A DNA stretch of 64,000 nt from NCBI GenBank assembly GCA_902531765.1, contig CACAFC010000003.1:1-64000 (forward strand), in the 5' to 3' direction. How positions within the stretch are numbered: position 1 is the first letter of the stretch; every line of letters begins with the position of its first letter. Below the pieces are notes generated by a model. The model worked only from the letters and a program-made list of their open reading frames with translations. It was not told the DNA's origin and ran no database searches. Below, piece after piece: positions 9,218 through 29,690 of the stretch. The position numbers and the translations under genes were made by a program. The DNA is from an uncultured Pelagibacteraceae bacterium (GTDB lineage Bacteria > Pseudomonadota > Alphaproteobacteria > Pelagibacterales > Pelagibacteraceae).

Positions 9218-9335
9218 TTGCCGGTAATTATTGCGAAAGAGTTATACCCGATACCATTCCGAACTCGGAAGTCAAGCCTTTCTGCGCCGATGATACTTTG
9301 TCTTAAGACATGGGAGAGTAGGACATTGCCGGCAT
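9218..9335 (+). rRNA. rrf: 5S ribosomal RNA, not linked to 16S/23S
   Basis: The sequence has the 5S hallmarks: CCGAACTCGGAAGT in the loop B/C region, GCGCCGATGATA, and GGGAGAGTAGGACATTGCC near the 3' end. Terminal helix I forms between TGCCGG at about 9219-9224 and CCGGCA at 9329-9334. Length is about 118 bases; the ends are placed by this pairing and may be off by one or two. No 23S or 16S is adjacent: sugar epimerase genes lie upstream and rpmJ starts 14 bases downstream. A 5S separated from the 16S-23S unit is a known trait of SAR11 genomes. Confidence 0.95.
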
Positions 9336-27736: not shown

Positions 27737-28459
27737 ATGGCAGGACATTCTCATTGGGCAGGTATAAAACATAAAAAAGGTAAAGCTGATAAAGAAAGAT
27801 CAAAAATTTTTTCCAAACTATCTAAAGAGATTACAGTTGCGGCTAAGTTAGGAGATAAAGATCCAGCTATGAACCCAAGATTACGTTCCGCTGTTCAAGC
27901 TGCAAGGTCAGCAAATATGCCAAAAGATAACATAACTAGAGCTATTGATAAGTCCTCAATGAGTAATCAATCAAATTTTGAAAATTTGAGATACGAAGGC
28001 TTTGGACCTGAAAAAGTTGCTGTCATAATTGAAACTTTAACTGATAACAAAAACCGAACCGCTTCCAATATAAGAACAATTTTTCAAAAATCAGGGGGAA
28101 GCCTCGGAACTCAAGGCTCAGCATCACACAATTTCAGTCAATTAGGTGTAATTAAAATCGATAAAAATGAAATTTCAGATGAAGACATATTAGAACTTGC
28201 TATTGATGCAGGTGCAAATGAGTGTAAATCAGATAAAGAATTTCATGAAATTCAATGTTCAATAAATGATATCTATAATGTTAAAAAAGAGTTAGAGAAG
28301 AAAATAAGTAATTTTATTTCAACGGGAATAGAGTGGGTGCCTTTAAATGCTGTTGAAATTCCAAATGAGAGAAAAGATGAATTAATTAATTTTTTTGAGA
28401 CATTAGAAGAGGATGATGATGTACAAAATATTTATTCAAATGTTAAATTTTCAAACTAG
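27737..28459 (+). CDS. YebC/PmpR family protein
   Basis: A 240-residue protein starting MAGHSHWAGIKHKKGKADK, the invariant YebC N-terminus. RSANMPKDNITRAI, YEGFGPEKVAVIIETLTDN and GSLGTQGSASHNF are further blocks. Family members have been described as transcription regulators and, more recently, as helpers for translation of proline-rich stretches. The yebC-ruvC pairing is conserved in many bacteria. Confidence 0.95.
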   Translation: MAGHSHWAGIKHKKGKADKERSKIFSKLSKEITVAAKLGDKDPAMNPRLRSAVQAARSANMPKDNITRAIDKSSMSNQSNFENLRYEGFGPEKVAVIIETLTDNKNRTASNIRTIFQKSGGSLGTQGSASHNFSQLGVIKIDKNEISDEDILELAIDAGANECKSDKEFHEIQCSINDIYNVKKELEKKISNFISTGIEWVPLNAVEIPNERKDELINFFETLEEDDDVQNIYSNVKFSN

Positions 28460-28468
28460 ATATAAAAT

Positions 28469-28963
28469 ATGCTTATAATTGGTATAGATCCAGGTATTTC
28501 AGGCTCGATTTGTTTTTTTGAAGATGGGAAAATTCTTGAAGTAATTGAAATGCCAGTCATGACTGAGGGTAAAAAAAATAAAAAACAAGTTAATGGTGCT
28601 CAAATTTATAACGAATTTTCAAATAGAATTAATAAAAAAAAAGATGATGAAGTGAGAGTGGTGATAGAACAAGTTTCTGCTATGCCAGGGCAAGGTGTAA
28701 CAAGTATGTTTAATTTTGGTCAATCTTTTGGGATTTTAAAAGGAATATGTTCCGCAATGCAATTACCAATGTTTTTTGTTAGACCAGCAAAATGGAAAAA
28801 ATATTTTAATTTAATTAATTCTCAAAAAGATGCTAGTAGAACAAGAGCGATCGAAATATTTCCATATTTTTCAACACAACTTTCAAAGAAAAAAGATTCT
28901 AACAAAGCTGATGCTATTTTAATTGCGAGTTTTTACCATGAAACTCACCAAAAAGATGATTAA
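28469..28963 (+). CDS. RuvC-fold Holliday junction resolvase, MOC1/phage-like type
   Basis: A 164-residue RNase H-fold nuclease, placed where ruvC is expected after yebC. Asp7 in GIDPGISG, Glu67 in VIEQV, and Asp143/Asp148 in KKDSNKADAILIA give a four-acid active site. The last pair is five residues apart, as in the plant organelle resolvase MOC1 and phage relatives (KKDxGRAxALLIA), whereas classical RuvC has three (DAADALAIA). GQGVTSMFNFGQSFGILKG and KDASRTRAIEIFP also follow the MOC1-like pattern. It should cut four-way junctions; it has no ruvA/ruvB downstream, where tolQ begins 52 bases on. Confidence 0.82.
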   Translation: MLIIGIDPGISGSICFFEDGKILEVIEMPVMTEGKKNKKQVNGAQIYNEFSNRINKKKDDEVRVVIEQVSAMPGQGVTSMFNFGQSFGILKGICSAMQLPMFFVRPAKWKKYFNLINSQKDASRTRAIEIFPYFSTQLSKKKDSNKADAILIASFYHETHQKDD

Positions 28964-29015
28964 TCCTAGATTTTTAAAGTCAAATTCATGACACATTTAA
29001 GTGTGAGAAGACCTT

Positions 29016-29690
29016 ATGGAAGCTGATATTTCATCACAAGCAGTCGGACTTGCATCAAGTGCTGACTTTTCACTTGTGAACTTATTTATAAGAGCTGATA
29101 TAATTGTTAAATCAGTCATTATTATTCTTATTGCGTGTTCAGTTTATTCATGGGCGGTAATCATTGAAAAATTTAAATTATTTAAAAAAATAAATCAAAG
29201 TTCAGAAGAATTTGAAACTAAGTTTTGGAACTCGAAATCTGCGGAGTCTTTTTATAATAATCTTCCAGGAAATATTAATGATCCTATGACTCTTATTTTT
29301 AAAGATGCTATGCAAAATCTTCTTAAAAGGAGATCCAAGACAGATTTGAATGCTAGAATGACTTCAATGTTAGAGACCGGGATAGAGAAACAAATGTCTA
29401 AAATTACAAAAGGATTTACTTTTTTAGCAACTGTTGGATCAACGGCACCTTTTATAGGTTTATTTGGAACTGTTTGGGGTATAATGAATTCTTTTCAATC
29501 TATTGCAATTTCAAGAAATACTAGTTTAGCGATTGTAGCTCCTGGAATTGCAGAAGCTCTTTTCGCTACAGCATTAGGTTTGTTGGCAGCTATTCCTGCA
29601 GTAATTGCTTACAACAAATTTAACAATGACTCTTTGAAATATTCACAAAAGTTAGAAAACTTTTCTAAAAGATTTTTAACAATTATTTAG
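29016..29690 (+). CDS. tolQ: Tol-Pal system proton channel protein TolQ
   Basis: A 224-residue inner-membrane protein with three helices (about residues 25-47, 128-150 and 163-190). FLATVGSTAPFIGLFGTVWGIM and APGIAEALFATALGLLAAIPAV are the MotA/TolQ/ExbB channel signature. With TolR it turns the proton gradient into force on TolA. It begins the tolQRAB-pal-cpoB cluster; the ybgC gene usually ahead of it is absent. Confidence 0.97.
   Translation: MEADISSQAVGLASSADFSLVNLFIRADIIVKSVIIILIACSVYSWAVIIEKFKLFKKINQSSEEFETKFWNSKSAESFYNNLPGNINDPMTLIFKDAMQNLLKRRSKTDLNARMTSMLETGIEKQMSKITKGFTFLATVGSTAPFIGLFGTVWGIMNSFQSIAISRNTSLAIVAPGIAEALFATALGLLAAIPAVIAYNKFNNDSLKYSQKLENFSKRFLTII

Follow-up and report, generated by a model that had tools for sequence, protein, structure and literature searches.

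Which enzyme resolves Holliday junctions in a bacterium that carries no ruvA, ruvB or ruvC, and what has become of the place that ruvC once held? The question is raised by the yebC–tolQ locus of an uncultured SAR11 bacterium of the family Pelagibacteraceae, within a stretch of 64,000 nucleotides that we refer to as the window. A RuvAB motor together with a resolvase has been held to be nearly universal in RecA+ bacteria, with little horizontal transfer (PMC1193525). A 2025 study noted that SAR11 lacks RecBCD, RecF and MutSL and proposed ‘a unique recombination apparatus’ without mentioning ruv (PMC12374537), and we found no description of ruv genes in SAR11 in the open literature. The first-pass annotation of this DNA had proposed that a non-canonical resolvase stands in place of RuvC; the family of the protein, its locus and the order-wide absence of RuvABC all agree with that proposal.

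The gene in the ruvC slot

The ORF in question starts with an ATG 9 bp downstream of the yebC stop codon. The locus is arranged as follows:

27737..28459, + strand: yebC, the upstream anchor of the slot
28469..28963, + strand: ruvC slot, predicted Holliday-junction resolvase of the MOC1/phage type (phrog_1770), 164 aa
28487..28489, + strand: Asp7 codon (DPG motif; MOC1 D116 by residue alignment), invariant in 109 orthologs
28667..28696, + strand: Glu67 (MOC1 E175) and the base-recognition loop EQVSAMPGQG, in which Met72 corresponds to MOC1 Y180 and Gln75 to MOC1 D183
28895..28912, + strand: Asp143 to Asp148 (D-x4-D, the MOC1 spacing; MOC1 D253 and E258)
28964..29015, + strand: gap of 52 bp before tolQ, the ancestral place of ruvA, ruvB and ybgC
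29016..29690, + strand: tolQ, the downstream anchor of the slot

All the motifs named in the first-pass annotation (GQGVTSMFNFGQ, KDASRTRAIEIFP and KKDSNKADAILIA) are found in the ORF, with D143 and D148 five apart, and ruvA, ruvB and ybgC are indeed missing from the 52 bp that separate it from tolQ. The ancestral alphaproteobacterial order, yebC-ruvC-ruvA-ruvB-ybgC-tolQ, is seen in locus L097. Elsewhere in the window, a 5S rRNA gene lies at 9220-9334 and no 16S or 23S gene was found within the 64 kb, so that the 5S gene is unlinked.

The window protein belongs to the MOC1/phage (phrog_1770) resolvase family. Pfam offers no family for it. In PHROGs, residues 1-158 match phrog_1770, ‘Holliday junction resolvase’ (E = 2.9e-37), and among solved structures the top match is plant MOC1 (6kvn, residues 3-155, E = 1.2e-12), with RuvC chains reaching only E ≥ 0.4; a control search by the same method, with RuvC from an alphaproteobacterium in which RuvAB persists, matched E. 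coli RuvC at E = 4e-29. The window protein scores 20 bits with the NCBIfam RuvC model, whose cut-off is 163. The AlphaFold model (pLDDT 92, pTM 0.89) shows an RNase H fold nearest to MOC1, its first 12 PDB matches all being MOC1 chains (TM ~0.85), followed by RuvC (0.54-0.67). In a phylogenetic tree, RuvC is split from the MOC1/phage proteins with 100/100 support, and the SAR11 proteins form a single clade (100/97) on the MOC1/phage side. The affinity to MOC1 and phage enzymes, proposed in the first-pass annotation, is thus borne out by sequence, fold and tree: profile searches match phrog_1770/MOC1 with the RuvC models below cut-off, and the protein stands on a non-RuvC branch. A plain bacterial RuvC was rejected as its identity on the RuvC model cut-offs, its position outside the RuvC clade of the class and the lack of RuvAB alongside.

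The gene is also maintained. D7, E67, D143 and D148 are invariant among 109 orthologs, whereas the conservation count for M72 and Q75 is biased, the sequences having been extracted by a pattern that bears on these residues. The median dN/dS among SAR11 orthologs is ~0.08, indicating purifying selection. A chance ORF is ruled out by the same-slot orthologs described below, by this ratio and by the invariant active site.

Alignment with tobacco MOC1 (NtMOC1) pairs D7 with D116, E67 with E175, D143 with D253 and D148 with E258. The catalytic tetrad of NtMOC1 is D116, D118, E175 and E258, with D253 dispensable (PMC7078210). Two residues expected of a strict plant MOC1 are replaced: the position of D118 is Gly9, giving a DPG motif of the RuvC type, and D183, which reads the cytosine, is Gln75, with Met72 in place of Y180 in the same base-recognition loop. 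The earlier description of a non-classical active site therefore stands as regards the D-x4-D spacing, but the site is a hybrid rather than purely MOC1-like, and with a glycine in place of the D118 that MOC1 requires, catalysis here may fall short of that of MOC1. With D253 dispensable in MOC1 and the D118 position a glycine, D143 may do the work of D118, as in RuvC. Because the cytosine-reading Asp is Gln, the sequence preference should differ from that of MOC1.

Loss of RuvABC and the recombination genes that remain

Across the 147 genomes of the order, the window's own included, RuvA, RuvB and RuvC were each found in none (0/147) above the cut-off of the full-length model; the sample contains about ten single-contig genomes that are at least 99% complete. 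In contrast, RuvB scores above cut-off in 342/385 genomes of the class. Among all ORFs of a single-contig relative of 1.2 Mb (G003) there is no RuvA, RuvB, RuvC or other slot nuclease. The ruvAB genes are thus absent from the whole order, not merely relocated, and neither a canonical ruvC with ruvAB elsewhere nor a tree placing the window protein firmly in bacterial RuvC was found.

Weaker candidates were rejected. RuvB-like matches in the window's genome score below 31 bits, and their ORF lengths fit DnaX, ClpX, DnaA, Lon and FtsH; two RuvB-like matches lie barely above the loose Pfam RuvB_N cut-off and none above the full-length RuvB model. Weak RuvA matches of ~30 residues in ORFs of 202-205 aa correspond to the helix-hairpin-helix of RecR (203 aa). 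Two loci of other genomes, L124 (G253) and L125 (G365), have a classical ruvC after yebC and no RuvB match at E ≤ 1e-10; these genomes apparently carry ruvC without ruvAB, or have an assembly gap.

RecG, the presence of which had been raised as a check, is kept, and is the only known branch-migration motor found. The window's genome encodes a full-length RecG (G000:C1:152958-154814), and all 106 of 106 high-quality genomes give a RecG-profile match, full length in nearly all, with a few weaker helicase matches. RecA and RecR are present in G003, as is a YqgF homologue, found with an approximate query sequence. A motif search, which is a weak test, found no RadA, and RecU was sought with a crude motif only.

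The slot resolvase is spread through the family. A same-slot ortholog occurs in 87/94 Pelagibacteraceae genomes, and in all seven of the others yebC itself is missing or cut short, from which we conclude that the locus is unassembled there. The order YebC-X-TolQ or YebC-X-YbgC-TolQ is seen in 93 loci, with L083-L086 and L100 retaining ybgC after the resolvase and before tolQ. At least 566 genome matches were obtained, the best 80 named of which are Pelagibacteraceae, Pelagibacterales or Ca. Pelagibacter. One copy (L092, G137) has several stops; since the neighbouring TolQ and TolR ORFs are shortened too, an assembly error is a better explanation than decay of the gene.

Phage relatives and other occupants of the slot

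Among isolated phages, relatives of up to 44% identity occur in, among others, Salmonella phage epsilon15, Microcystis phage Mwe-JY08 and Pseudomonas phages FBPa19 and FBPa42, and the phage family extends to cyanophages and to Bacteroides and enteric phages. At least 578 viral contigs carry relatives of the resolvase. Motif sharing at these viral loci is partly by construction, the loci having been scanned for AMPGQGV; the phages found by tblastn and the HMM-found L044-L047 are exempt. The highest viral identity to the SAR11 resolvase is 46%, and the transfer event must therefore be old. Inside the phage side of the tree, plant MOC1 and virus L243 cluster together (99/93), a hint that the chloroplast enzyme, too, may descend from a phage-type resolvase.

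The sister family within the order (f2) has no MOC1-like gene; its MOC1-like matches at E ~7e-4 are due to chance and lie mostly inside one 691-aa protein. Its yebC–tolQ slot holds a protein of 123-127 aa that matches PF24608 (phage PD-(D/E)XK) above cut-off and phrog_244 at 1e-20, with D50, E60 and K62 invariant and a predicted fold that weakly resembles archaeal Hjc (TM ~0.47, E 0.01-0.1). It is found in 43/53 f2 genomes, the other ten being <80% complete, is absent from the Pelagibacteraceae genomes and recurs on viral contigs at 46-58% identity. The sister family's slot nuclease is thus a phage-type, Hjc-like PD-(D/E)XK protein unrelated to the MOC1-type resolvase.

Families outside the order that lack both RuvB and RuvC carry yet other phage-type genes directly after yebC. 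The slot of f51 holds a divergent PF24608/phrog_244 protein, and those of f25, f142 and f32 a phrog_2002 protein of 97-122 aa with an ExK motif and no Pfam family, whose phage copies (70-73% identity) lie beside a gene like that of the terminase large subunit (L388-L392). In f119, the slot protein is of the MOC1 type but separate from that of SAR11 (AU p = 0.019). Examples of the two PD-(D/E)XK slot genes are:

L080:1029-1406, - strand: slot nuclease of f2 (yebC–tolQ loci L103-L107)
L126:2263-2568, L129:1157-1462, L128:2265-2555 and L130:1140-1505: phrog_2002 slot nuclease (f25, f142 and f32)

Different phage resolvase families have therefore filled the ruvC slot anew across the lineages without RuvABC. 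A YebC+YmdB+TolQ tree scatters the RuvABC-less families but does not reject their forming a single clade (p = 0.105), so that RuvABC may have been lost once or several times. We would put at even odds the broader proposition that, in streamlined Alphaproteobacteria, the ruvC slot is a standing vacancy repeatedly refilled from phages with motor-free, probably broad-specificity enzymes. On this view three or more phage resolvase families, unrelated or only deeply connected (phrog_1770/MOC1, the phrog_244 PD-(D/E)XK proteins and the phrog_2002 PD-(D/E)XK proteins), took the place directly after yebC once RuvABC was lost; if so, such enzymes may be part of the cause of SAR11's promiscuous recombination.

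Proposed role and relation to known systems

Our preferred reading, to which we assign a probability of roughly 85%, is that a SAR11 ancestor lost ruvC-ruvA-ruvB and that a phage-type resolvase of the phrog_1770/MOC1 family took the slot, serving now as the cell's Holliday-junction resolvase without RuvAB. The three genes would have been lost from between yebC and tolQ in an ancestor of the Pelagibacteraceae, and the newcomer in the vacated slot would have been a housekeeping enzyme since. By homology, the protein, presumably a homodimer with an RNase H fold, would have a basic cleft that receives the four-way junction; the loop EQVSAMPGQG would open the crossover, and opposite strands would be nicked with Mg2+ held by D7, E67, and D143 and/or D148. 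Cleavage of junctions by the window protein is thus a prediction from its sequence. Because RuvAB is absent, no E. coli-type resolvasome can form, and branch migration would proceed through RecG, RecA or spontaneous movement, the predicted resolvase probably acting independently of any motor. Motor-free resolution in a cell has precedent: an E. coli strain deleted for ruvABC regains UV resistance when given the RuvC of phage bIL67 and nothing else (PMC3864405). The earlier-known RecA+ bacteria without RuvAB likewise keep RecG (PMC1193525).

It is very unlikely that the gene is instead the original, vertically inherited ruvC, fast-diverged after RuvAB was lost, with its likeness to phage and MOC1 enzymes due to convergence or to transfer from SAR11 to phages. 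Such a history would suit the position in ruvC's own locus, the common superfamily and the traces of RuvC in the profile scores, where one relative reaches 20 bits with the Pfam RuvC model, as the window protein does with that of NCBIfam; on the unrooted tree, SAR11 adjoining all RuvC is also not rejected (p = 0.48). A clade of SAR11 with alphaproteobacterial RuvC, however, is rejected (AU p = 2.4e-38, dlnL 130), the fold is MOC1-like rather than RuvC-like, the phage enzymes show much greater diversity, spanning cyanophages, Bacteroides and enteric phages, and the unrelated fold in the sister family's slot means that the slot gene is replaceable. On that same p = 0.48 the long RuvC branch may join the MOC1/phage sequences at more than one point, so that the SAR11 clade is only putatively nested in phages; we infer passage from phage to cell from the breadth of the phage family and the repeated use of the slot by phage families, not from a rooted tree.

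Two further possibilities concern function. The protein could be a phage nuclease, now domesticated, that mainly serves another purpose (stalled-fork trimming, nucleoid segregation or phage exclusion), with YqgF or another enzyme resolving junctions. This we consider unlikely: although phage resolvases cut several branched DNAs (PMC3864405), MOC1 serves chloroplast nucleoid segregation (PMC7078210) and G003 has its YqgF homologue, the gene sits in the ruvC slot beside yebC in every family genome with an assembled locus, predicted resolvases of another fold fill that slot in the sister family and other RuvABC-less lineages, pointing to a common resolvase role, and YqgF, usually found alongside RuvC or RecU, is no simple substitute (PMC1193525). 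A RuvC-like resolvasome with a new, unrecognised motor in place of RuvAB is distinctly unlikely. The near-universality of RuvAB in RecA+ bacteria (PMC1193525) and the heavy recombination of SAR11 (PMC12374537) would favour one, but the locus contains no candidate gene, the AAA+ matches to RuvB are the weak ones described above, and RecG is kept order-wide, as in the few other bacteria without RuvAB (PMC1193525).

An entire order of marine bacteria, and an extremely abundant one, is thus without RuvABC, and its two families hold unrelated phage-type resolvases in one slot. For the resolution step missing in SAR11 there is now a named gene whose active-site residues are plain, and the order offers a natural test of whether resolvases depend on the RuvAB motor.

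Of known systems, plant MOC1 (PDB 6kvo, 6jrf) is the best whole-length match in sequence and fold, and the SAR11 protein has the D/E-x4 acidic spacing, equivalents of D116, E175 and E258, the W-K motif and the KD.SR segment in common with it. Unlike MOC1, it has Gly9 for D118, Asp143 for D253, Gln75 for D183 and Met72 for Y180, lacks a transit peptide and is encoded in a bacterial housekeeping locus. The PHROG 1770 phage resolvases are its family by HMM and tree, at ≤44% identity, and have the MPGQGV loop and the D-x4-D/E active site, whereas the SAR11 gene is a fixed, yebC/tolQ-flanked chromosomal core gene under strong purifying selection. With bacterial RuvC it shares the place after yebC, the superfamily fold and the IDPG first motif, yet its acidic pair is five rather than three residues apart, it falls outside the RuvC clade and its genome has no RuvAB. 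Phage enzymes had been suggested previously as stand-ins for cellular resolvases (PMC1193525), and RecU in Firmicutes is likewise an unrelated resolvase in RuvC's stead (PMC1193525); there, however, RuvAB is kept and recU generally lies away from the ruvC place, while in SAR11 RuvAB is gone and the newcomer occupies the slot itself.
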